Shown here piece by piece: positions 31,701-46,922 of a DNA stretch of 64,000 nucleotides. The position numbers and the translations under genes were made by a program. Position 1 is the stretch's first letter, and every line of letters starts with the position of its first letter. This DNA comes from Gyromitra esculenta (Eukaryota; Ascomycota; Pezizomycetes; Pezizales; Discinaceae): positions 186,001 to 250,000 of the forward strand of contig JBCAML010000010.1 of the NCBI GenBank assembly GCA_038503075.1, written 5' to 3'. The notes beneath the pieces are model-generated. The model had not been told where the DNA came from and made no database searches. It saw only the letters and a program-made list of their open reading frames with translations.

Positions 31701-33680
31701 CGGATGGTTGTGGGGAAAGAAAGTACGGAAGATGGTGATTCACTAGAGGTCTCAGTTTCTATAGCATATATAACGATCTGCTAGTCGTCCACTTAGTCAT
31801 CGCTACTACATCGATACTCATGTCACTAGTTTCCAACTCGATCATGTGGTCAGTTAATAGGCAGCTTAAATTGTTACACAAGCTGGAAATCGGTGACATG
31901 AGCTGTGATGTTCAGGCATCGGCATCTGGCGAATTCAACCATAATCCGCACAGGTTGCAGACCTGAGCCCACAACCTGCACCAGCATACATGTAATTTAC
32001 AATCATAGAACACTGTATTCCAATTGATAGTGGCGAGAGTTTTTATTCCTAGCTCACATTATATTTTTATTCTCAAATGTACTCTTTAGTTATTTTTCAG
32101 TGAAGTAGACTAGCTCGGTTCGGGGTCTCTCAGGCGTAGGTTAGGGTTTCCGACTCGCTCAATAGTTTTGAATTCGAGAGTAGAGTAGAGCAAGTGTATG
32201 TGCATCTTATGTTCTACCATAAGTACCTGAAGACATAGGTATGAGCTTGGCTACATGTAGCCAAACTGTGAAGCACTACCGCAGGGAAGAATTGGGGATG
32301 TTGCCGCCAAAGGGACTTTTGGCAGAGCACGAATACTAAGGTATGGACATAGTGGACATTTGAACGTACTAGGCGCAGGTGGCGTGTGTACGAACGTACT
32401 TGATTAGCAACGTATGGAGTGAACCAGTGTATTGATCGCTGGTGACACACGAACATGCAATTGGACCAACGTGTTGGGCGTTGGGTGCACATGAACGTAC
32501 CATATTTAGTCATGTGCCCACGTGCTTCCTTTTTTGCTAATGTAGCCACTGTATTATTGTCGCTAAAAACTAGATAACGTAATTTCGTCCTGCCTTTAGC
32601 TGCTACGACCTGCACCCCACTAATTAAATATCGAATTTAAATATCAACATTTCCGAAAGATCTGACTTTTCCTGGGGCACTGTTGGCGAGGTACTACATG
32701 TAGAAGCATACAAGGGGTGAAGTTGGAACGGCCAAAGTACTAAAGAACAGTTTTTCGAGTAAATACGTACAGTATATGTGAAGGGTTTATCGAGCTAGTG
32801 ATTCCAGCCCCTCGATGCCCAGGTGAGAGAATTAACGAAGCGACCGTATTGCATTGATCTTCAACAGGTGTTGCGAGACAAAACGCAAGATGGGTTAAAG
32901 TGAGTCTCAGAGTTAAATCCTGAGACAAAGTCCCGAAGGTGACTTGTCTCACGTCCATCAGGATATGCCAGTATACCAACCTTTAGTTGGACGCACAACA
33001 CTCTTTGCTAAGAAATACGCCCGCAAAAACGGGCAAACGTCCGTGACGAAATATAGCCCCGCAAAAACTACGTTGATTAAGAGCTGAGAGTTGTCTCTAG
33101 ACACCGCTAACTTTAACTTTTACAGGTGGCTCCCTGATATGGACGCACCTCGAGATTTCGCAAAGCGTCATGTAAACTCCTGGAACACGTGTACGTGGTG
33201 AAAGAGCAGTTATATATGGTACGCTCGCAAATAAACGTGGCCAACTAAGTCTCATTACGCCTCTGTCTTACCGAAGATGCCAAACCACTCACCAAATTTA
33301 GTAAGGAGCCCTTCTAGCTAGATACCTAAATCGGCTATACTAATTTTTAAATACGTGCTCTCTCTCCACAGGAGCCCCAAAAGCCAACCCCCAAACGCAG
33401 AAAAGATGTTAGTAAATACTGCGTATATTTAGTCACGATATTGGTATTCCTTAGAACGTTCTACTTTGCACCAACAAACTTAAGGCACTGCAGCAGAACA
33501 TATTAGGGTTACAGCAAGATGGGTTCTCCATTCTATGACCATATGGAACCACCGTAGGAGAATCCCAAACTTACCTCATCCCCATGACCCGACTCGGGTA
33601 TTTCATATGCTCCCATATTCAAATGAAACAGGCCATCTAAAATATGAACTAGTAGAGGTAGCAAATATCAAATATCATAG
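28791..33680. other. Gene-poor interval
   Basis: No convincing gene in almost 5 kb. Includes a microsatellite of TCTATTGA units at about 29248-29276, a probable MITE relative at 30379-30502, and a G/C-rich patch of CGGTCCGTC repeats near 29798-29820. The open frames at 29460-29690 and 32214-32615 lack support. Confidence 0.45.
30379..30502. mobile_element. Diverged relative of the 47656-47800 MITE
   Basis: Shares ordered blocks with 47656-47800: GGGGAAG followed by GTGGC or GTGGCGG, GGCTTTGTA.GCT, ATTTTGT.GCATAT and CCCTGTTTTCTGGTTC. The ends are poorly conserved, so the edges are approximate. Confidence 0.5.
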
Positions 33681-33684
33681 GCCT

Positions 33685-33725
33685 CTACGGGGGCGCGTTG
33701 CTACCAAAGTCCAATTAAGGATTTT
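33685..33725 (+). repeat. Left terminal inverted repeat of the transposon
   Basis: Starts CTACGGGGGCGCGTT. Preceded by the target duplication GCCT at 33681-33684. Differs from the right repeat at positions 15 and 31 only. Confidence 0.95.
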
Positions 33726-34021
33726 TCGAAAATCTCGCTTAGCTGCAAAAACCTTTGCTGCCCACTGGCACACCTACTACATGCGAGAAAAGGAACATGT
33801 ATAGAACTAATTTCGCTTTGCTAGCGACTTGTGGCAGCATGTTAGTCAAAGAATATATATTAAATATCCTCTAGGGTTGAATATTTTACTGGTCATGCTG
33901 GGTATCTCTAATTTGTTGATTTTATTGTGGTTTTACCCCGCCTGTGACCACTACCTGCCTTCACTACCTACCTCCACTACCTACCTCCAGTACCTACCAG
34001 CGCCCTCCACTACCTGCCAAC

Positions 34022-35461
34022 ATGCCGGAAGCTATCACTTATTTTGACATGCAGCGCATGATTTCCTCCCAAGTACCCTTTGATGAATACATCCTAGAAT
34101 TGCATCCTCACTGGCACAGAAAAGTGTCCAGTAAAATCGCTACTGTTGAAAACCCTGAGCTTTTAGAAGCGATTAAAGGTTTTTTTAATTTTAATACCAT
34201 TATAGGTAATTTTCTGACAAATAATAGGAAAGACATTTTCTTTTCAAGGCTCGAATGTTCAGTTTCATGGGAAACAACTTGGGATTCCTTTGGTAGATGG
34301 TATTTGGCTGCGAGTACAGTTTGCTCTACACGGTCATGGGTTACCTGCCTGTAGAGAAGAGTACAATAGCATGGTTCAGGCCTGGGATAAAGAAGAAGAC
34401 AAAAGAAAACATATATATATTCAGGGAGCAATTGTTGGACCGAAGATGTGTGTTATTTTGGTGGATCGGTAAGTATCCCACATATTTATTTTATTAAAAA
34501 AATATATTTCTAATATTTTTACAGAAATAGGCTTATGACTATTACAGCCATACGGGCTACCAATTCCATTTGGTACAATACCTCTTGGGCACCATGTCCA
34601 ATCCAAGAACCTGATGCGTTTGAAAAAAACCTTCGCCTTTCCAGCACCCTATGATCTCCAAAAAGAACCTCTGCTATCTACAAAGAAATGACCAATTCTG
34701 CCAACAATAATCTATGGAATGGTATTGGTACGAGCCATGCTGTTGAAATACTTCATCGAGCCAAAATTCACCCTGAGCACTTTACAAATGACATTTTTCA
34801 AAAGTCAGATTTCAAAAATAGACTACTGGCAGCGATTAGATTATTCTTTGAGATGGCCAACTCCCAAGAATATAGACAGCGAGTCCCTGCAGGAACAACC
34901 TCCAACCAAGCCTTTGATTTCTCAGATTCTGTCACACGCTACATCAACTCCCAGTTTACAAACGCATATAGGAAATCTGAAGTTGGTCTATCGCTTGCAG
35001 ATTATAATATGCTACAACAAAAAAACCTGCTACACCCTGATAGCGAGCCATTGAAGGAAGGATGGGAGGAAAATCTCTATACAAGTACAGGAAGACTTGT
35101 GAAAAAAATTGTACCTGTTTACACGATTGAATTAAGGAGTAAAAAGGGAGGAAAGATGGATCCTGATGAAGATGAAGAAAATATTGAGAAAAAAGGCAAA
35201 GCTAAGTACACCTATACCTGCATTTTTCCTCAGGCCGGAGCAAAAAATGGGAGAATTCTTTCAAAAGAGGAGGCAGAAAAAAAACAGAGGTATTTAAGCA
35301 AAGATGGAAACAAAGCTGAGATTGGAATTGCTAGTTTTATGGATACTATCCTACAAATGCGGTTGAGAAAAGAAATAACTATTTCATCAAGTCATGTAGT
35401 ACCTATTCCATCAGGTAAAAGAGGGAGGCCTAGGAAAAGAAAAATAACTGAGGAAGATTAA
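34022..35461 (+). pseudogene. Unknown transposon gene, interrupted by one in-frame TGA
   Basis: Proposed exons are 34022..34205, 34249..34468 and 34525..35461, with introns of 43 and 56 nt (GTAATT..AAG with a CTGAC branch; GTAAGT..CAG with CTAAT). All three exons share one continuous frame of 446 sense positions except for TGA at 34652-34654. That codon is one transition from CGA, so the copy is probably a recent nonsense mutant; the downstream ATG at 34688 could still give a 257-residue fragment. I recognise no domain. The C-terminus is basic (SGKRGRPRKRK, AT-hook-like), and an acidic patch precedes KKGKAKYTYT, hinting at nucleic-acid binding. Acceptor 34547 is an alternative for intron 2 but changes frame. 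Confidence 0.6.
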
Positions 35462-35841
35462 ATATCCTCATCTGTAGTATAACTATTATCGCTATCTGAT
35501 ATATCACTTTCATCTTCTCCGAAAAATTCTGCCTCAATATCTACATGTTTGGCTCTATGATTTTGATTTTCTTTTGGCTTTGGTAATAGCGATAATGTAG
35601 GAGCTTTGTTTCCTTTAGCCACATGCCTTCTAATATGATGACGTAGAAAACAATACATGCTGTAATGAGCTTTTTCTCCAGTTGGTAAATTGTCCTCATA
35701 GCTAATATTAAGTGGAAGCCCTGCTTTTTTTAACAAAGCCCCACAGTACGCCATTGTACCATCCGGTAGATAGGCATCATGGTCTAAATTAATCAGTAAA
35801 TATCCAACAATAGTACTAGTATAAAACCTTTTACGCACCAT
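35458..35841 (-). CDS. Small unknown transposon protein with acidic tail
   Basis: Open frame of 127 codons from ATG at 35841. It overlaps the last 11 bases of the transposase gene in the +1 frame, and its stop overlaps the stop of the opposite-strand gene (TTAA at 35458-35461), so there is no spacer on either side. The protein starts MVRKRFYTST, has a His/Arg-rich centre (RHHIRRHVAKG) and ends in an acidic tail (DESDISDSDNSYTTDEDI). No family recognised. It could be an independent gene, or a C-terminal part of the transposase reached by a frameshift or by splicing I cannot see. Confidence 0.5.
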   Translation of the reverse strand: MVRKRFYTSTIVGYLLINLDHDAYLPDGTMAYCGALLKKAGLPLNISYEDNLPTGEKAHYSMYCFLRHHIRRHVAKGNKAPTLSLLPKPKENQNHRAKHVDIEAEFFGEDESDISDSDNSYTTDEDI

Positions 35842-37685
35842 ATAATCGACCAGTCTCCAAATTTTTAAGTTTTTGATCCCTAATTTCAGCTATCTTTGTG
35901 TTGGAAGGTTGGGAGCCGTAATCTGTTATGCCAGTTGGAGGAAAATAATAGTTGTAATATGGCTCACCCGTTGGAAGGTTTGGTCTGTTGGATTGTTTCC
36001 TGATTTTATGGTCATTCCACCTTTCAACAAATTGATGTAACTGAGCTCGTAATAGGGGGAGATAAATATATAAAAGGCATATAGTATCTTCCATATTATC
36101 TTCATCAAATAATCCGTTTTGCTGCAGTAACCGAAAATGTTTCTGGAAATAGATATTAGTATTAAAATTTAAAAAATAATTAAATGTACTTACTTTCCAA
36201 TCTGATGTAGCTCCCTTGGTTAATTGCCCCCACCAGCTTTCTATTCTAACATTTCGTGTAGAGGTTCCATACCAAAACACTTCAGGGAATGTTACATTCT
36301 CTTTATCCACTCGATGAAGCTTCCAAAATGATTCCGCCACCAGCATTGTTTCAGACCCTCTATCGGCCCTTAGATGTAGTGGAATAGTATTATGCATTTC
36401 TGCCACCTGTAAAAACTGGCTTAATACGCTTATTCCAGTTTTACCTGAGACTCCACAATAAAACCATGTTATATACCGTGAATAGGAATCTATTGCAGCA
36501 TATATTTCAATTCCAAACATTTGAAGCTTCAAATGACCATCGATTGACCAACACCAATTAGGCCCTGGGCATACAAAGTGTGTATGGTGTCTATTGACTC
36601 CTCTCCATCGATTTTCTACCCCTACTGGGTCCACAATTCGTAATGCTCGCCCAATTCTATGCCTACACAAAAGTTAGCTATTTAAATAAATAGTTTTACC
36701 TAGATAATTATAATATACCCAGAGGCTAGGATACCTATATTCCTTAAGTGTACCCAAACAGAACGACGGCCAGAAAGTGTAATATTTCCTTTGTCCAACT
36801 CTTTTTCAATGATGGCCTGTAATTTGGTATCTGCTTCTTCTCCTAAATCCTTTGAACAAAGCCGTCTAAACATTCCCATAGATTTGCGGATGAGAACAAG
36901 TCTCCGATGCTCAATTTGGTAGCCATGGATTTGTAAGATCTATATTTAAATTAATTATATATTATTTGAAATATCAATAACTTCTAGACTTACTCGTAAA
37001 ATCTTTGTATCACTCAGACATTTTTTCCAAAATAAAAAGGTCTCACGGTTGTGCCTCAGGTTAAGCCCTTCAGTATCCCTGAAGGTGAGCAGTGCTACTT
37101 AAGCGAGGTGACAACACGTTTGAAGAGTGCAGCGTGTTCTACAAGTTCTACGAGAATATCTTTGTCTCAAGGCGAGATAGATGCAGCGAGGTAAACAGCG
37201 ACAGCGAGGATTCTGAGGTAGAATCGAGATAGTATTCCAATGATTTACAGCAGAAGATAACGAGAACGTTGCTTAAGGAAAGAAGAAAGAGAATACACAA
37301 ACGACAAAACTCCCTCGCTTATATACCCCGCTTTCCCGTCGCACAAACAACAATCCAGTGATAACCGAAACACAACCGAACAACAAAGCCATTATAACCA
37401 TATAACCCTATTACTACAAACCACTTTATCCTAACCCATTACTCGATCTCATCCGTGAAAAAAGGCCAGTTCAACACGAAGAAAGGATGTATCTTGTGTA
37501 AATTCGTGTTTATTAAACTGCCACTCCTTGATATATTTCATGAATGATGAACGAGAACATTTAACATTTTGTGAATGTAAAATATTTAATGTATCAGAGA
37601 TTGTTTTATTTTCTTCAATGTATAGGTGGTATATGTTGTATTTTTGTAGTAGTAATTGTTCTCGGACTGAAGATATGCGGGACAT
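35831..37685 (-). pseudogene. HTH-integrase transposase gene, split by a solo LTR
   Basis: Exons read 37685..37461 + 37035..36994 (one exon split by the LTR), 36939..36719, 36662..36194 and 36142..35831; introns 54, 56 and 51 nt. Without the LTR and one duplication copy the frame is open for 422 residues. Residues about 1-60 resemble the Clr5-type helix-turn-helix of fungi (ISDTLNILHSQNV, then SFMKYIKEWQFNK). The catalytic core is a retroviral-integrase-like DDE domain: Asp in WCWSIDGH, Asp in LRADRGSE, Glu in RNVRIESWW, spaced D-x58-D-x40-E. Trp-rich flanks and VERWNDHKIRKQ are typical of fungal integrase-core proteins. It would cut and rejoin the transposon ends. With the LTR present the first exon runs into a stop soon after the insertion. 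Confidence 0.82.
37041..37460 (-). mobile_element. Solo LTR of the same gypsy family
   Basis: 420 bp flanked by AAAGG on both sides (37036-37040, 37461-37465). It shares with the intact LTRs the ends TCTCA and TGAAA, the blocks GAGCAGTGCTACTT, ACGTTGCTTAA.GAAAGAAGAA and CGCTTATATACC.CG, and the same orientation. It is clearly more diverged from them than they are from each other, so it is an older insertion or a subfamily. Confidence 0.92.
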
Positions 37686-38246
37686 TTGTGATAAATAAAA
37701 AATAAAAAATTAAGTGTGGGATTTCGAGTGATATTAGGTGACCAAAAATGAATATGACAATTTTAAAAAAATGTAACAATGCAAGAAATTTTTATTTATA
37801 TATTACGGGGCAGAGTCATATAACCCAAGTTAGGAATCTAGAGCCATCAGGCAATCCATACGTTATGATATTGCTATCTTTTATGTGTCAAGATTTTGTT
37901 GATATCAATAAGACATTTACTACTGCAGTACAACACGGACCTACCACAACAAAAACGGTGATAATATACTTTTATACTAAAGTGTGTGTGATTAGAATGC
38001 ATAAAATGACTTAAAAATATAAGACTAATAAACCCCTTAAATACAGCAGTACTTACTAGTTTAGTAGTCTTCGCATAAATATCCTAGATTGATACAAATG
38101 CATTTATTGTGATCTGTGTATATATAACTATACTATTTTCTATGTTACCCCCTATACTTCTACACACCTTTTTCTAAACACCCATTCCACTGGTACCCTT
38201 TCTATTTTCTCTCTTTTTTTTTACATATTTCTCACTTCCACTTAAA
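37686..38246. promoter_or_regulatory. Divergent intergenic region between two transposon genes
   Basis: AT-rich, 561 bp, between the start of the transposase gene (-) and the start of the second unknown gene (+). It probably holds both promoters. An 88-codon open frame at 37748-38014 has no support. The last 60 bases before 38247 are T/C-rich. Confidence 0.4.
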
Positions 38247-39044
38247 ATGTCTACCTCTCACGCACTTCCAACTGAATATTGTGGGCAACGTGAAAATACC
38301 ATCCACTATCCTACCACCGATAAGGTTTTCCGCTGTTGTGGAGAAAGGGTTCCAGTATATCTTCGTGAACCTGAGCCTGCCGCTGCAAGTACCAGTATTA
38401 GTAGAACCTCCAAACGCAATACCAATCAACAACCTAAAAAACAGAAAAGACAAAGTAATGTTCCGGAGACAATTATAATTTCCAGTCCTATAATGTCTCC
38501 TACTAAATCAGCTGTTGTTAAAGCAGGTCAGTTTACCCATCGTCAAATCGTTGAACTTTACAGAAAAGGATCTATAACAAAAAGCTTTGCAGAAAAAAAA
38601 TCAAAAAACAGTTCAACGTATGGTATTTCTACAGCTATATCTGCTCCTGTTAAAACTGTAAAACAGTCTATCAAGGCAAGAGATTCTCGGAAAATTGTGG
38701 TTTATGTTGGATCTACGTCTGATAAATGGTCAGCATTTAAAAACTTAGGTAAAAGATTTTCTCCCCCAATTTACATTGACCCACATGAAGTAATAAAATT
38801 AATTTTTACAGGTGTTTCTTCAAAAGTATTTGATGATTTTGAAGAAATAATATCTGATGTATCTGATTTTGCTCAATCACTACTTGAGTCATCGCCAAAT
38901 TGGATAGATGAAGAAGCAGTTAATGTTGACTATTTGGATATTCAACAAATAATTCCTGCAACTTTTTTCAGTCCGAAAGAGGGGCCTCATCGATTGGAAG
39001 TTAGAAAAAAACCAATTACCGTTGGTGAATTTTTGTTGGATTTT

Positions 39045-39455
39045 TCTCAAGGAGCGAGATTCTCGTCAAGCTCTCAGGTATCCCCCGAGATGAGCAGTGC
39101 TACTTGAACGAGAAACTAGCGACGGGAGAGTGTGCGAGGATTCTACAGGCTCTACCAACGGTTCAAGTTATGACGACTTGAAGACGGCGACGGCGAAAGA
39201 TTACGAGGTGTAATCTAAGTTTGTATTCGTGGGATACAATGAGTGTGCAATAGAAGACGTTGCTTAAAGAAAGAAGAAGGAAAAGTACAAGATGAGGGGA
39301 AATCCCTTCGCTTATATACCACGTTCCAACCCTTTCGATGACAAAGACATGACTCATTATAACCAGAAACTCATAGAAACACAAAGAGCAACAACGAAAC
39401 CCGACAACCATGTACCCATGTACCTAACCGATCGACATAACAACCATCCATGAAA
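39045..39455 (-). repeat. 3' LTR of the gypsy element
   Basis: 411 bp, from TCTCAAGG to CATGAAA as written on the plus strand. A TATATAAG box lies on the minus strand near 39310-39317. I count eight differences from the other LTR, all transitions. Confidence 0.95.
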
Positions 39456-39466
39456 GTAGCCCCCCC

Positions 39467-42400
39467 TCATAGCCGTGAGCTCCTGCGAACACTAACCACT
39501 TCTTCCCTTGGTTTATCCGGATATCGTTGGTAGAAAGAATCTACAGCTTCCGTCTCTTCATGGTACTCCGCAGGTTCCCAGGTGGGTAATGCATAGCCAG
39601 TCCATTCGACCAAGTATTGAAGTTTTCCACGGTGTAAACGGGAATCCAGGATAGCTTTGATGAGGTATTCCTCATGGTCATTAACTTGAACTGGCGGGGG
39701 CGGCATAATAATCTGACCGGGGAGTGGATCGATGGGAGCTGCTTTGATCAACGAGACGTGGAACACGGGGTGATACTTCATTGATCTTGGGAGGTCAATT
39801 TCGTAGGCGTAAGCTGAAATAACACGTTTCACCGGGAAGGGGCCACTCCATTTCCAATCCAGCTTCCTTGAATTCCGTGTTGTCCTCATGTTCTTCATTG
39901 ACACAAACACTTCGTCCTTCTCCTTGAACACTGGGGCGGGAGTACGATGTCGATTTGTACTTGACTCGAAGATGTCCTGGGCCGTCCTCATCTGTACTCG
40001 GAGGAAGTCTCTAAGTTCTTCCATCTTGGAGGCGAAACCGTCGGCATCGAGGGTCTGGGGAGAGCGGTCATTAGAGACGATTGAAGTGTCGAAGCGAGGG
40101 TGGTAACCATAATTCGCAAAAAAGGGTGTAGCCTTAGTACTTGCGGATTCCTGGTTGTTAGCAGCAAATTCAGCGATGGGTAACCACTTTGACCAGTCGT
40201 CTTGTTGATAGGAAACATAACAACGGAGGTATTGCTCCATTACGGCATTGAGTCGTTCAGTTTGTCCATCGGTTTCTGGGTGGAAGGAGGTAGACATGCG
40301 GGCGGCAATATTCAAACGCTGGCAGAGGTGCTTCCAAAACTTTGCAGTGAACTGCGTTCCTCTATCAGAAGTAATATGAGAAGGAAGTCCATGGAGTTTC
40401 CAAACGTTTTGGAGGTATAGCTCGGCAGTTTGTTCGGCGTTAACGGTGGTATTACACGGGATAAGGTGCCGCATCTTTGAAAGTCGATCCACGATGACCA
40501 TGATGGCATCAAAGCCATTGGATTCCGGGAGACCAGTGACAAAGTCCATCGACAATTCCTCCCAGGGGCGGTTGGGAATCGGGAGTGGTTTTAGAACACC
40601 ATGAGTACCGAGGGTGCTTGGTTTTGCTCGTCGGCAAATATGGCAATTCCGGGTATATCGTACAATATATTCCCTCATCTTTGGCCAGTAGAAGCATCTT
40701 GAGATGAGTTCAAAGGATTTTTCACGTCCTGGGTGGCCAGCGGAGGGGGCGTCATGATGTCGCTGCAGGATAAGAAGGCGAAGAGGGTCATGGTCAGGGA
40801 TATAAAGTTTTTGTCGATAAAAGAGGCGGCCGTTCATCTCGGTACAATCGCCTAAGGTGATTTCCTTGGATTGTCGTTCGCCGTTCCTAAGTGCTGAAAG
40901 GATTTTTTGTGGGAACGGGTCAGCATTATATCCCTGGTTCATTAGAGTTTCAAGGGTGGCATCCATTTCAGCGGGTTCATTTGATAAAGAACCCGAAAAC
41001 AAACTCAGCTTGGGGTCCAAATTCTTTTCCTTCAGGACTACTTGGTGTTGGTGTCGTAGTCTTTCATCCCCTTCTTCAGGGAGATCTCCTGATCTCCGAG
41101 TCAATGCGTCCGGCTTTCCTCCTTGTACTCCTGGTCTGTACGTAATGACAAAGTCAAAGCGTGAAAGGTATTCTGCCCATCTGACTTGTCTTCGGTTCAA
41201 TTGCTTTGTGGTCATAAAATATTCCAAATTTTTATGGTCCATGATAACAGAGATGGGGAGTTCAGATCCTTCGAGCTCGGGGCGCCATTCTTCAAAGCAA
41301 CGGATAATGGCTAGTAATTCTTTATCATAGATTTCGTAGTTACACTCAGCAGGTGAATGCTTCTTGGAAAAAAATGCTACAGGGTGGAGTACGCCGTTAT
41401 CGTCGAGTTGGGAGAGGACACCGCCGGAGACGAAGTCAGAAGCATCAGATTCCACAAAGATCTTCTTTCGAGGGTCAAAGTGGATGAGTACGGGGGCTTT
41501 GGTGAAGGCATCTTTCAGGGCTTCAAAAGCGAGTTCTGCTTCGACTGTCCATTCGAAAACAATGCCTTTCTTTGTAAAAGCGGTAAGGGGTGCCGCTAAC
41601 CGCGAGAACCCTAGGATAAATCGCCGGTAGAAGTTCGCAAAACCGAGGAAGGCTTGAACATCTTTGATGCATTTTGGGCGGTTCCAATCTCGTACGGCTT
41701 TAAGTTTCTCTTCGTCCATCTTAATCCCTTCAGGTGTGAGGATCAATCCGAGGTATTTTATGGATTGGACGTGGAATTCACACTTCTCAGGTTTGAGGAG
41801 TATGTTATTGGCTTTCAGGGCATCGAGGACTTGTCGGACGTGGACTTTATGTTCGGCGAGGGTATCACTATAGATAAGGATATCGTCGAGATAGGCCGTG
41901 CAAAAGAGGTCCAAGTATTCTCGGAGAGAATCATTGACAAAGCGTTGGAAGGTACCGGGGGCATTGGTGAGGCCGAATGGCATAACCATATATTCATAAA
42001 GGCCATAACGAGTCCTAAAAGCGGTTTTCCATTCTTCTCCCTCAGCGATGCGGATTTGGTGAAATCCATCTCGAAGGTCTAGTTTGGAATACCATTGTGC
42101 TTTAGCGAGGCGGTCGAGGGTCTCTTTGACGAGCGGGGAGGTATATCGGTCTTTGACGGTAAGGGCATTAAGGCCTCGGTAGTCTACACAGAGGCGTAGA
42201 GATCCGTCGGGTTTTGCGGCGAAGAGAACGGGAGAACCAGCAGAAGATGAACTGGCACGGATAAAGCCCTTCTCTAGGTTGTCTTCGATGTACTTCTTAA
42301 GAACTAGAAGTTCATCTCGTGACATACCATAGAGGGGGCCGAATGGTGGTTCCTTACCTTCCTGGAGGGTAATGCGGTGATCATAAGGGCGACGGGGAGG

Positions 42401-43147
42401 GAGTCCTTGGGCCTTCGCCTTATCAAACATGTCTAGGTAGTCATGATACTCAGCGGGTATTCTTTGTCTCCATTCCTCTTTTGTGGTTTTGCTATCGAGG
42501 ACTTTATTTATTTCATATAGAGACATTGAATAGACTTGAATACCCTTTTTCCGGGCGAGCATGCGGAAACTGGCGGCTCCAATAAAGGCGGCATTAAGTT
42601 TGGCTGGAGGCGGGATGGCAGCGGCGGAGACGATAGGTTGTTTGGGGGCACAGTGGGTGGTGCAGAACTCAGAGTTGAATTCAATGCTTTTGTTGGCGAA
42701 TTGTAGGTGGACATCATGGAGATTCATCCATGGGATACCGAGCACTAGGGGGTAGTGTCCTAGTTTGGTGACGAAAAAGGGGGCTTTCTCATTATGTTGT
42801 TGAATAGAAAGCTCCAAGTGACAAAGATCGGTAATATCTCCCGAGGCAATTGTTCGGCCGTCAATGACTTCTAATTGGCGAGGGTTTTTAAGGGGAGATA
42901 ACGGTAGGGAATGGTGACGCACAAAGTTTTCATCAATGAAAGCGAACCCTGAGGCTCCAGTGTCAAGAAGTGCGTGTGTTTTTATGACTTTATTTTGGTG
43001 GGAAAGGCTACATGAAACTACAAAATGTTCCCCATCCAAATTATCCTCCACGCACACATCCGACACTGAAAACCCAGAGATAGAAAACGCTGACAAAGAA
43101 GAAAAAGAAACCAGAGCAGGGTCACAAGGCGACTCTGGTTGAACTAG
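39467..43147 (-). CDS. Gypsy Pol: protease, reverse transcriptase, RNase H, integrase, chromodomain
   Basis: Open frame of 1226 residues if entered by -1 frameshifting at 43147; there is no suitable ATG at its beginning. Domains in order: aspartic protease (HALLDTGASGFAFID), reverse transcriptase with catalytic YLDD (TAYLDDILIYSDT), RNase H (VESDASD, then EIYDKELLAI), integrase with an HHCC zinc region (HHDAPSAGHPG, then CHICRRAK) and DDE core (SMDFVTGLP, TSDRGTQF, HPETDGQTERLN), and a C-terminal chromodomain (YLVEWTGYALPTWEPAEYHE). The chromodomain is expected to guide insertion to histone-H3-methylated chromatin. No stop or frameshift interrupts the frame. The TGA at 39467-39469 abuts the polypurine tract. 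Confidence 0.95.
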   Translation of the reverse strand, partial: LVQPESPCDPALVSFSSLSAFSISGFSVSDVCVEDNLDGEHFVVSCSLSHQNKVIKTHALLDTGASGFAFIDENFVRHHSLPLSPLKNPRQLEVIDGRTIASGDITDLCHLELSIQQHNEKAPFFVTKLGHYPLVLGIPWMNLHDVHLQFANKSIEFNSEFCTTHCAPKQPIVSAAAIPPPAKLNAAFIGAASFRMLARKKGIQVYSMSLYEINKVLDSKTTKEEWRQRIPAEYHDYLDMFDKAKAQGLPPRRPYDHRITLQEGKEPPFGPLYGMSRDELLVLKKYIEDNLEKGFIRASSSSAGSPVLFAAKPDGSLRLCVDYRGLNALTVKDRYTSPLVKETLDRLAKAQWYSKLDLRDGFHQIRIAEGEEWKTAFRTRYGLYEYMVMPFGLTNAPGTFQRFVNDSLREYLDLFCTAYLDDILIYSDTLAEHKVHVRQVLDALKANNILLKPEKCEFHVQSIKYLGLILTPEGIKMDEEKLKAVRDWNRPKCIKDVQAFLGFANFYRRFILGFSRLAAPLTAFTKKGIVFEWTVEAELAFEALKDAFTKAPVLIHFDPRKKIFVESDASDFVSGGVLSQLDDNGVLHPVAFFSKKHSPAECNYEIYDKELLAIIRCFEEWRPELEGSELPISVIMDHKNLEYFMTTKQLNRRQVRWAEYLSRFDFVITYRPGVQGGKPDALTRRSGDLPEEGDERLRHQHQVVLKEKNLDPKLSLFSGSLSNEPAEMDATLETLMNQGYNADPFPQKILSALRNGERQSKEITLGDCTEMNGRLFYRQKLYIPDHDPLRLLILQRHHDAPSAGHPGREKSFELISRCFYWPKMREYIVRYTRNCHICRRAKPSTLGTHGVLKPLPIPNRPWEELSMDFVTGLPESNGFDAIMVIVDRLSKMRHLIPCNTTVNAEQTAELYLQNVWKLHGLPSHITSDRGTQFTAKFWKHLCQRLNIAARMSTSFHPETDGQTERLNAVMEQYLRCYVSYQQDDWSKWLPIAEFAANNQESASTKATPFFANYGYHPRFDTSIVSNDRSPQTLDADGFASKMEELRDFLRVQMRTAQDIFESSTNRHRTPAPVFKEKDEVFVSMKNMRTTRNSRKLDWKWSGPFPVKRVISAYAYEIDLPRSMKYHPVFHVSLIKAAPIDPLPGQIIMPPPPVQVNDHEEYLIKAILDSRLHRGKLQYLVEWTGYALPTWEPAEYHEETEAVDSFYQRYPDKPREEVVSVRRSSRL

Positions 43148-44391
43148 TTTAAAGACTCGACTGAGTCTGCTGCATCGAAGGCAGGGAAACGAGGAGGGAG
43201 AGGCGGCGGAAAAACAGAAGGGGCTGGGGGTGTAGCGGCGGCGTTGGTGACGGCTCCTCTCATGGCGGGGCGCTTGGAGGCAGAAGGGCAGTTTGAGAAG
43301 ATATGTCCTTCCCCGGCGCAGAACAAGCAGCGATTATTGGTTTGTCTCCAGGATTTCTCCTCAGGAGACAACTTTCTTCTCCCGTTTATTTGAACATAAC
43401 GTTGTTCTGGGGCGGGACGAGAGGTGGAGGTACGACCGAAAGAGAGATCCATGGGGACAAGTCCTCCAGGGGCGAAGGAGGAGGAGGCGGGGGTATAGGC
43501 GGCGGGGGGGGCGGCAGGGGCGACGAATTGTCCCATGGTGTTGCGGGTGGCATTTTTCTTCTCCTCCCTTCTTGCTCGGATTCGATTATCTAGGCGGAGG
43601 AGGAAGGCGCAGAGGGAGGTGAAAGTGGTGGGGAAGTCGGCGACCGTTACTACTGCTTCTTTCAGCTCATCCGACATGCCGAATTCTAGAGCATCGTTCT
43701 TGGCTGATTCGTCGTAATTAAGGCTTCCCATGATGCGTTGGAAGTCGGCAAGGTAGGCGGAGAAATCTCGCTTTCCTTGTCGGAGTTGGTGCAGTTCACG
43801 GCGAGCGGTACCAAGAGGGTTGGGATCGCCGAAGGCGGTTTCCAAGGCGGTGATTAGGTCGGCGGCGGAGTTCCAGGTGGTAGTTCCGTCTGGAAGGACG
43901 GAATGGCGAACTTGTTCGAGGGCGGCTCCCTCGAGACGGCTAATAGCATACAACACCATATTGTTGCTGCTGGAGAATCGGTCGGCGTTAACCGAGAGCT
44001 TTGACCTGAGTTGCAAGACGAACCCGGGGAGTTTATCGCGAGACCCATTGAACTTATCTGGGTCGGGCATTTTGTCTGAGCGGCCTCCTTGAGTGTGAGC
44101 AGGAGGGGGGGGCGGTGATGGTGCAGGAGGTGGGGGAGCAACATTCTGGAGGCGGGCGATTTCCGCTTCTGCTGCCTGTAGTTGGGACTGACAGGTATTA
44201 AACCTGGCCGTCATGTTATTCCTCTCTTGAGTTGCTTCCTCAAGCTGTAGGTCTGCATAGGTGAGGTTATCCACCCGCTGTTGGTAGTGTGAGCGGATTT
44301 CCTCATAGGCGGAGGCGAGGTCGGCATTGGCGGCGGCTTGGAAATTCTCAAAGGTGGGGAAAGTCCAGGGGGCGGGGGCGGGGTTGCTCAT
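43144..44391 (-). CDS. Gypsy Gag
   Basis: 415 residues from ATG at 44391 (MSNPAPAPWTFPTF). A Gag capsid-like helical region follows a coiled segment (ERNNMTARFNTCQSQLQAAE) and a Pro-rich linker. The C-terminal CCHC zinc knuckle CLFCAGEGHIFSNC fits C-x2-C-x4-H-x4-C and would bind the genomic RNA. An upstream in-frame extension exists but lies towards the primer-binding region, so this ATG is preferred. The last codons are Leu-Asn then TAG, and they form the slippery heptamer described separately. Confidence 0.93.
   Translation of the reverse strand: MSNPAPAPWTFPTFENFQAAANADLASAYEEIRSHYQQRVDNLTYADLQLEEATQERNNMTARFNTCQSQLQAAEAEIARLQNVAPPPPAPSPPPPPAHTQGGRSDKMPDPDKFNGSRDKLPGFVLQLRSKLSVNADRFSSSNNMVLYAISRLEGAALEQVRHSVLPDGTTTWNSAADLITALETAFGDPNPLGTARRELHQLRQGKRDFSAYLADFQRIMGSLNYDESAKNDALEFGMSDELKEAVVTVADFPTTFTSLCAFLLRLDNRIRARREEKKNATRNTMGQFVAPAAPPAAYTPASSSFAPGGLVPMDLSFGRTSTSRPAPEQRYVQINGRRKLSPEEKSWRQTNNRCLFCAGEGHIFSNCPSASKRPAMRGAVTNAAATPPAPSVFPPPLPPRFPAFDAADSVESLN
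43147..43153 (-). promoter_or_regulatory. -1 ribosomal frameshift heptamer at the gag-pol junction
   Basis: On the minus strand the bases are T TTA AAC in the gag frame, a canonical X XXY YYZ site, with the gag stop TAG (43144-43146) directly after it. A -1 slip continues into pol as CTA GTT CAA. A downstream pseudoknot was not assessed. Confidence 0.85.
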
Positions 44392-44448
44392 GGTGACGTT
44401 GAAAGTAAATGGGTAAGGGTAGAGGGTGTAGATAAGGAAGCAACGTAA

Positions 44449-44859
44449 TCTCAAGGAGCGAGATTCTCGTCAAGCTCTCAGGTATCCCCCGAGATGAGCA
44501 GTGCTACTTGAACGAGAAACTAGCGACAGGAAAGTGTGCGAGGATTCTACAGGCTCTACCAATGGTTCAAGTTATGATGACTTGAAGACGGCGACAGCGA
44601 AAGATTACGAAGTGTAATCTAAGTTTGTATTCGTGAGATACAATGAGTGTGCAATAGAAGACGTTGCTTAAGGAAAGAAGAAGGAAAAGTACAAGATGAG
44701 GGGAAATCCCTTCGCTTATATACCACGTTCCAACCCTTTCGATGACAAAGACATGACTCATTATAACCAGAAACTCATAGAAACACAAAGAGCAACAACG
44801 AAACCCGACAACCATGTACCCATGTACCTAACCGATCGACATAACAACCATCCATGAAA
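44449..44859 (-). repeat. 5' LTR of the gypsy element
   Basis: 411 bp, flanked outside by ATTTT (44860-44864). It contains the TATATAAG box near 44714-44721 (minus strand) that should drive gag-pol. The sequence just inside (TTACGTTGCTTCC on the minus strand) should hold the primer-binding site; I could not match it to a tRNA. Confidence 0.95.
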
Positions 44860-45619
44860 ATTTTCCAGGAGGAGCTGCCACAAAAATATATCTAATAGTA
44901 AAATATTGGACGGCCAAAGATAGAGAACAGAACCAGCAACAGCAAAGTGAAGTTTCTCAAGTGTTTATGAGGAAATTCAAGCGAGAAACTGGGTTGGACT
45001 ATGCCAGTGATTCAGATACGGAGGTAAAGGAGGAACATACTAGATACAGAATGCTATCTGTAGGGCACGAGGTAAAAAGTACTCCTAAATTAATATAAAT
45101 TAATATTAACATTATAAAAAAGAAACCACAGCCCATGAAAAGAACAGCTTCCGGCCGGCAAATTTTTGAGGATAATGATTCATCTCAGTCCCCTCCAGCT
45201 ACCAAACGGCACAGAATAGAATCACCTGAGTTGCCAGTACTTCCTGTTCTCGAGTATTCTTCTCCTTCAGGTTCACCAATACTGCCACCTATTACCTCTT
45301 CGCCTCCACATGTTCAGAAAGCGCCTTTAAAAGAGAAAGAGAAACGGATAAAAGGAAAAGCTTTAGAGACTGAAAAGGGAGAAAGTGGGCTAGGAGGAGA
45401 GGCTATAGAAGTTGAAAAAGCTCCTGCAAGGATTACAAGGCTGCGTGTTAGGAAAAAGACAAGCTAATTAATGTTTTGCTATTTTGTATTTTGTATTTTA
45501 GAGTTCTTTTTCTTATTTGTATTTATTGGCGGTCTCTTATTTTTATTTTTTAGCAGTCTCTAATTTCTATTTTTTTGCATTCTCATTTTTTTTGCATTCT
45601 CGTTTTCGTTGCAATGCCC

Positions 45620-45660
45620 AAAATCCTTATTTGGACTTTGGTAGCTACGCGCCCCCGTAG
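45620..45660 (-). repeat. Right terminal inverted repeat of the transposon
   Basis: Reads CTACGGGGGCGCGTAG inwards on the minus strand. Followed by GCCT at 45661-45664. Its outermost 16 bases can fold back on themselves (CTACG paired with CGTAG); the left end has lost this by one change. Confidence 0.95.
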
Positions 45661-45664
45661 GCCT

Positions 45665-46922
45665 CAGACTGGAGAGCAACTTTATGATGGCGATCTCTTC
45701 GGGGATTGGGCGATGAGAGTAGAACTTGCACCGCTCAGTGCGTACAAGATCCCAAACTTATGTTTACTATGTACATGTAGTAATAGCCTCCGATTTGCGT
45801 TGTCTCGGCATATTTACGGCTTGGCTATCCTATTTCAGATTTTAAGACATCTGTATCTGGCTCATCGATACTTTAAATTCCCTTATCTGGCTGAAGAAAT
45901 TTTTCCATTTACAGTCTCTTATCAGACCACTTGGGTCAAATGTGTACCAAATTGCTAGCTCTGAGGCAGTTTCTATAGCTAGGGCGCTATTAGCAGAATA
46001 ACCGTAGCGATTCTCTGACGAAAATCTCTCTGGCGCTTACTGCTCTAGTATTGGTATCCCGATCCCCCATCGTTCTCGCCCAGAACACGTCATGCATGTT
46101 TTCCCAACTAGCACAGGCCAGAGTCCGCTTAGTCAGAAAGCTTAGTCTCATGCTGTGAACCTTAATCTATGAGGTTGGTTAGCTAGACGTTGTTAATTAC
46201 TTTATTGTGATAAAAAATCTCAGCATAATTTACTATATAAGAAAAAAACATATTGAATTGACGGGATTAGGTCCCTAAGAAGATCAATCGTTGTCCCGGC
46301 CCTGCAGGGATAGATAGAATTTTGTCTGCACCGTTGGTCATGAGTAAAACACCTTTCTGTCTCCTATTATAATGCTGAGCTTGGGCAAGACATGTACATC
46401 TATCAAACCCAATGAAGTATCAGTTAATTCCAATCGAACAAACCCAGTCAAGGAACAATTATGTTGGTTGTCACCAACCTCCACGAACAGCAGGCCGACT
46501 AATGTACAGACTAACTTGTCACATAGCGGCCACGATACTCGGCGACCTAGATATGCGGATATCGTAGCGATGTGCAATCACTTGCTCCCATTTCTTTTGG
46601 GATATCAAAGGGATCTTCCAATCGGAGCCAAATTTCGATTTCAGCTCACTCGGAGCTCTTTCTCCATATCGACTCTCGACGCGCAATAGTTCAGGGTAGG
46701 AAGTAAATCCGTAAACGCAAGCGCTTCCACAAGTCCTGAGATCATTGGTAAGGTACGAGCGAGGCAGCAAATCAGCTGAAAATGGTTGAGAGAATTCTGT
46801 CTATAAGTACTCTCCTTCGCCCGCACATCCAGTTTATCACCATCAAATTCATTCACAACTCCCACGCATCTCACTAAGAAATCACTTCCAAAACTCAACC
46901 TAGTCCACTTTTCAGATTCAAA
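45665..46922. other. Gene-poor interval and promoter of the secreted peptide gene
   Basis: No supported gene between the transposon and the peptide gene. A TATAAG motif at 46802-46807 lies about 120 bases before the peptide ATG, followed by an A/C-rich leader of the kind seen in strongly expressed fungal genes. Confidence 0.5.

Follow-up and report, generated by a model that had tools for sequence, protein, structure and literature searches.

Capture of TET/JBP enzymes by DNA transposons is known from fungi, and these enzymes are thought to aid escape from methylation. Published accounts describe IS3EU families as having TA..TA termini and usually 6-bp target site duplications (PMC10045372); in rust fungi these elements combine 6-bp duplications with terminal inverted repeats (TIRs) of more than 30 bp and ends of the form TAYGG..CCRTA (PMC12730594), and Colletotrichum lupini and Ganoderma likewise have annotated IS3EU elements (PMC11645255, PMC8955403). 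The TET-bearing IS3EU elements of rusts and Tuber indicum carry a TET/JBP gene between transposase and alpha-kinase genes, and the author of that paper takes these enzymes as anti-silencing (PMC12730594). Styx of Zymoseptoria has an IS3EU-related transposase, 6-bp duplications and four open reading frames (ORFs), and its degenerate copies are mobile when intact copies serve them (PMC10853768). GingerRoot, characterised from a clubmoss and compared here by its description, has 6-bp duplications and mostly TA..TA termini (PMC10045372). Here we describe a transposon of Gyromitra esculenta found in a stretch of 64,000 nucleotides (assembly GCA_038503075.1, contig JBCAML010000010.1, positions 186,001 to 250,000; hereafter the window), in which a transposase gene is accompanied by two partner genes, one to its left and one to its right. 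Our reading as a whole, to which we give a probability of roughly 0.7, is that this is an IS3EU-type element with an Fpg/Nei-like left protein that counters silencing or mutation, plus a new right protein.

The element occupies positions 33686–45659 of the window (11974 bp) and is a nested TIR transposon whose limits were fixed from seven further end pairs in the genome. When the genome was searched with left-end DNA, 20 places came up, two of them being the ends in the window itself; end pairs were read from the flanks of these places and of one diverged copy, giving eight in all: the window pair (C10), C13, C8, C18a, C18b, C23a, C2 and C23b. Outside these pairs stand C12, which has one recognisable end only, and several single ends for which no partner was found. 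Every one of the eight is flanked by an exact 6-bp duplication (in the order given, GGCCTC, CCCACC, GCAACC, GCCAGC, ATTGAG, ACGGAG, CGCGTG and GTCAAG) and none by a 7-bp match. The TIRs are 40 bp long and agree at 34–39 of 40 positions across the eight pairs (38/40 in the window), and the element begins TACGGGGGCGCG, without a leading C. TACGG stands at both ends in six of the eight; the right end of C18a reads TATGG, which is compatible with TAYGG, and that of C23b reads TACAG, which is not. The terminal repeats are not a product of chance, for across 47.1 Mb of genome the 13-mer CTACGGGGGCGCG was counted seven times, a reversed control not once. The original prediction had described 41-bp inverted repeats starting CTACGG beside a 4-bp GCCT duplication, and had named copies with ends elsewhere as its test. 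Such repeats are indeed present (33685–33725 and 45620–45660, 95% complementary), but a C precedes TACGG at both ends in just three of the eight pairs, an outcome that goes against CTACGG ends, and because all eight share 6 bp, GCCT is merely part of a 6-bp duplication. A genome search for the empty insertion site with the joined flanks gave only the two flanks themselves.

The transposase gene lies on the minus strand in five exons separated by four GT-AG introns, and the gene models have open frames of 526 amino acids (aa) for C13 and 536 aa for C12, a diverged copy. In Pfam the C13 protein matched rva_4 (7e-32), Clr5 (2.1e-6) and rve (0.0013), in keeping with the integrase-type rve/DDE transposase and the Clr5-like helix-turn-helix (HTH) that had been predicted. 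All 19 aligned sequences have the D, D and E residues, the second D and the E being separated by 40 residues (DD40E); upstream of the core the Pfam scan found no H2C2 domain, Clr5 standing there instead. A protein search that scored the 7992 candidates with most words in common gave 17 homologues, six of them named and all six fungal (Morchella importuna, Coniochaeta, Paracoccidioides, Talaromyces, Daldinia and Hypoxylon). The M. importuna homologue shows 74% identity over 68%, and Clr5 occurs together with rva_4 in 5/17 by precomputed annotation. When six proteins were scanned against NCBIfam, IS3 models matched three (best 3.1e-12) and IS481 models five, all far below curated cut-offs. The genome holds 23 transposase matches, part of which were studied.

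Since 6-bp duplications, ends of the TAYGG..CCRTA type, TIRs well over 30 bp and a Clr5 plus rva_4 transposase all fit published IS3EU, as does a DDE integrase-like core without an upstream HHCC zinc domain, the element matches fungal IS3EU and would not constitute a new superfamily; this placement is one of structure and domains. The proposal of an undescribed fungal family thus goes too far at the superfamily level. At the family level, open-licence PMC literature yielded neither a description of the gene set of Fpg/Nei-like protein, transposase and new protein nor any report of a transposon bearing an Fpg/Nei-like gene. The gene set within the IS3EU lineage would then be the novel part. Where the TET-bearing elements carry TET/JBP and alpha-kinase genes (PMC12730594), this one carries an Fpg/Nei-like gene together with a protein in which no alpha-kinase domain was detected, whereas the partners reported for Styx are GATA, CCHC and DUF3577 proteins, with no Fpg/Nei-like one among them (PMC10853768).

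The window copy is interrupted twice, a solo long terminal repeat (LTR) of 420 bp splitting the transposase gene and a Gypsy element of 5815 bp splitting the right gene. The Gypsy element encodes reverse transcriptase, RNase H, an integrase with H2C2, a chromodomain and gag, and its two LTRs are 97% alike over a 300-nt stretch. Removal of both inserts with one copy of each 5-bp duplication leaves, by arithmetic, 11974 − 425 − 5820 = 5729 bp, in place of the 5731 bp first given. A natural copy without either LTR insertion is found at C13:1449940-1456408. It aligns with the window in four blocks that are 98.4, 94.8, 99.1 and 98.9% alike; there is no break in its transposase frame where the window has the solo LTR, nor in its right-gene frame where the window has the Gypsy element. 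The nested TIR transposon of the original prediction, with two LTR insertions in duplicated targets and open frames restored at both junctions, is therefore borne out by the ends, the duplications and C13. As for the uninterrupted 5.7-kb copies that were to be sought, C13 is free of both inserts and measures 6469 bp; it has its own insert of ~0.78 kb before the right gene. The repeat in that insert also occurs near the C18:1404k and C17:1200k copies. Two short non-autonomous relatives, C8:1021803-1024117 (2.3 kb) and C18:213166-214747 (1.6 kb), have the same ends and 6-bp duplications and are about 78% alike over their larger aligned block.

Left gene, transposase and right gene stand in one shared order in C10, C13, C12 and C23b, and the left gene and the transposase are convergent, their stop codons overlapping. 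Between subfamilies (window, C12 and C23b) the ratio of nonsynonymous to synonymous differences, given as pN/pS instead of dN/dS because dS is near saturation, is 0.24–0.33 in the left gene, which shows that this gene is under purifying selection; the corresponding figure is 0.17 for the core transposase, and 0.48 and 0.15 for the first and second exons of the right gene. Around the more distant rva_4 copies, one on C11 and the other on C4, no credible homologue of the left or right gene was found within 13.7 and 13.5 kb respectively, the C12 left protein giving matches of E 0.47–0.52 only, and the gene set therefore seems particular to this lineage.

The left partner, which had been put down as unrecognised, is probably a remote homologue of the Fpg/Nei glycosylases (MutM/NEIL1). 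A profile search of the left family against PDB gave 24 matches, all to Fpg (9) or NEIL1 (15) and all weak (E 0.01–0.93), and a second alignment of the family again gave 24/24 Fpg/NEIL1 (E 0.17–1.7). H2TH was the domain matched by most members of the family in Pfam (8/20), and the four members scanned in NCBIfam matched Fpg models only, weakly. Profile-to-profile comparison by hhalign joined the left family to Fpg/Nei at 88% with a score of 51.0, whereas the best of 150 column shuffles reached 22.7 and reversed and unrelated profiles stayed below 25. A Foldseek search with a structural model of the left protein gave a best E of 2.9e-8, and all 50 matches listed are Fpg/Nei-type glycosylases; the model was built on the alignment of the profile searches and is not independent of them. 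Like MutM and NEIL1, the left protein has a Met-Pro-Glu (MPE) start, in 5/7 N-termini seen (window, C13, C18b, C23b and the homologue P0007), a beta-hairpin Lys (GK) aligned in 4/4 (window, C12, C23b and P0007) and an H2TH-like region with HPE. Unlike them it has Thr for the GxGN Asn, no four-Cys finger and a long extra C-terminal part, and sequence identity is about 12–18%. Matches of the family to 11 other Pfam families in single members (PV_NSP1 best, 0.0033) and to DUF6280 in two were judged chance.

Taken together, these features allow a mechanism to be proposed. The five-exon transposase, with its Clr5 HTH and DDE core, would recognise the 40-bp TACGG ends, excise the element and join it over a 6-bp staggered target to give the 6-bp duplications, a cut-and-paste chemistry that we infer from the family; short gene-less copies would ride on the transposase of the full element. 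For the left protein we infer a glycosylase/AP-lyase activity, whose targets would have been modified or mutagenic bases within the element itself, such as those that arise when cytosine is methylated, oxidised or deaminated. Our best guess is that removal of these bases countered host silencing or hypermutation, on the parallel with TET/JBP dioxygenases in other fungal IS3EU elements and on what is known of Fpg/Nei enzymes. A more specific form of this idea, tentative at best, is that the lineage encodes its own Fpg/Nei glycosylase, with which bases derived from methylation would be removed from its DNA or repaired; this lineage would then supply the excision step of a demethylation pathway, and sister IS3EU elements the oxidation step (TET/JBP). 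If the reading is correct, transposons recruit base-excision enzymes too and not TET/JBP alone, the element allows one to ask directly if mobile elements bring along tools for DNA demethylation or against mutation, and the left protein would be a sign that the Fpg/Nei fold has a very diverged branch not recognised before.

Several observations weigh against it. The IS3EU placement stands on structural criteria and, indirectly, on the IS3/IS481 matches of relatives, and exon 3 of the window transposase alone gave zero NCBIfam matches. Every single Fpg/Nei sequence match of the left protein is weak. The 24 PDB matches include many variants of one protein and hence are not independent, the hhalign match spans P0007 residues 59–267 and leaves the MPE start outside, and a single-sequence phmmer search of PDB with P0007 found zero Fpg/Nei chains and two unrelated ones (E 0.13 and 0.62). 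PV_NSP1 beats H2TH in one family member (0.0033 vs 0.0063). The structural model is poor, with a mean pLDDT (predicted local distance difference test) of 53.7, TM-scores of 0.18–0.36 and root-mean-square deviations of 9–17 Å. Two decayed C23 copies begin TPE and MQE. The H2TH region aligns, with a block pLDDT near 90, yet its GxGN Asn is Thr, and no four-Cys zinc finger was seen in the protein, whose C-terminal third is modelled without confidence; catalysis could thus be lost. NEIL1, too, is without zinc in its finger. None of the left genes examined in the genome is intact: the window copy has one in-frame stop, the C13 copy is broken in frame within exon 3, and further defects are the lack of a clean first exon in C12, three in-frame stops ahead of the C-terminus in C23b, and a split gene in C18b. 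A strong signature of repeat-induced point mutation is absent, TA/AT being 0.90–0.95 in four copies or pieces vs 0.81 in window positions 1–30000.

The main rival gives the left protein a structural role in transposition, as a DNA-binding fold of H2TH type, possibly with no glycosylase activity, that would bind or bend the ends or handle integration gaps or nicks. The shared order of left gene and transposase in C10, C13, C12 and C23b, the overlapping stops, purifying selection as on the transposase, and altered H2TH Asn and zinc finger would all suit it. The MPE N-terminus and the hairpin Lys, however, serve Fpg/Nei chemistry and not binding, and their retention (5/7 and 4/4) speaks against a purely structural protein; the distant C11 and C4 transposases without a credible left homologue also indicate that this transposase type may not generally need the left protein. 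We consider this role unlikely. That the left protein is no Fpg/Nei homologue at all, its likeness being convergent or due to chance and its gene of another kind, is a much less probable account: it would explain weak single matches, a low-confidence model and low identity, but it must contend with two profile searches that found nothing other than Fpg/NEIL1, with shuffled, reversed and unrelated controls at less than half the score, and with a Foldseek result that agrees, albeit from a shared alignment. Least credible is a Ginger or Polinton identity, which was rejected, for although the DDE core is of integrase type and 6-bp duplications are also known in Polinton (PMC10045372), Ginger1 duplications are 4 bp and those of Ginger2 4–5 bp in the same source, against 6 bp in 8/8 here, Clr5 and no H2C2 precedes the core in Pfam, the transposase relatives match IS3/IS481 models, and Pfam scans of the element's ORFs showed no polymerase or capsid gene.

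Table 1. Features of the element in the window, by position
Feature	Position	Strand	Basis or remark
Target duplication, left, GGCCTC	33680..33685		Flanks of eight end pairs
Left TIR, 40 bp, TACGGGGGCGCG...	33686..33725	+	38/40 identical to right TIR
Left gene (Fpg/Nei-like) exon 1	34022..34178	+	ATG CCG GAA = MPE start; intron position placed from relatives
Left gene exon 2, HGKQLGIPL... hairpin region	34228..34468	+	Left boundary putative (49-nt intron; 43-nt alternative)
Left gene exon 3, H2TH-like NGIG..IHPE	34525..35461	+	One in-frame stop at residue 176 in window copy
Transposase exon 5, C-terminus	35458..35783	-	Stop codon overlaps stop of convergent left gene
Transposase exon 4	35839..36142	-	Gene model
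Transposase exon 3, rva_4/rve core	36194..36662	-	D-D-E codons 36539-36541, 36362-36364, 36239-36241
Transposase exon 2	36719..36939	-	C13/C12 gene models mapped by eye onto window sequence
Transposase exon 1, Clr5 HTH	36994..37685	-	ATG 37683-37685; split by solo LTR
Solo LTR insertion	37041..37460		AAAGG at 37036-37040 / 37461-37465; called LTR from short matches to Gypsy LTRs
Right gene exon 1, conserved C/H/CC N-terminus	38247..38748	+	ORFs, homologue comparison
Right gene exon 2, first part to Gypsy insertion	38812..39044	+	ORFs, homologue comparison
Gypsy/chromovirus LTR retrotransposon insertion	39045..44859	-	ATTTT at 39040-39044 / 44860-44864
Right gene exon 2, second part	44865..45071	+	C13 frame, homologue comparison
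Right gene last exon, basic, serine/proline-rich tail	45123..45467	+	Intron placed from inter-ORF stop and P0016
Right TIR	45620..45659	-	Repeat comparison, end pairs
Target duplication, right, GGCCTC	45660..45665		Flanks of eight end pairs

Elsewhere in the genome, the host's ordinary Fpg gene (C22:1015282-1015551, H2TH E 1.1e-21) is clearly distinct from the transposon protein, and a bacterial genome scan with the host Fpg gave nothing useful. A broken TET/JBP-like stretch with four internal stops lies at C17:1015945-1016316 (Pfam E 1.3e-8) and was the only match in the genome search. Several inverted repeat blocks of about 300–650 bp stand around the diverged rva_4 copy at C4:1331000-1344500.

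The original prediction had placed three unknown partner proteins beside the transposase. Partner genes are present there, but they number two, for the supposed third, the ORF at 45099–45467, probably forms the final exon of the right gene, on the model of the Morchella conica protein P0016 (376 aa). This homologue, with 50% identity over 89%, joins the right-gene parts into a single three-exon gene, which in the window is split by the Gypsy element; the C13 copy of it has one in-frame stop. Neither a fold nor a known family was found for the right protein (model mean pLDDT 45.2): in the PDB its profile matched nothing but chains of acyl carrier proteins and of mitochondrial transcription elongation factor (E 0.29–1.6), and Pfam matches were confined to single members. 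An alpha-kinase reading was rejected, no such Pfam match being present, and the name GIY-YIG homing endonuclease, which P0004 carries in the database, was dropped on the same ground. The right protein represents a new protein family, and its conserved Cys/His N-terminus suggests zinc binding.

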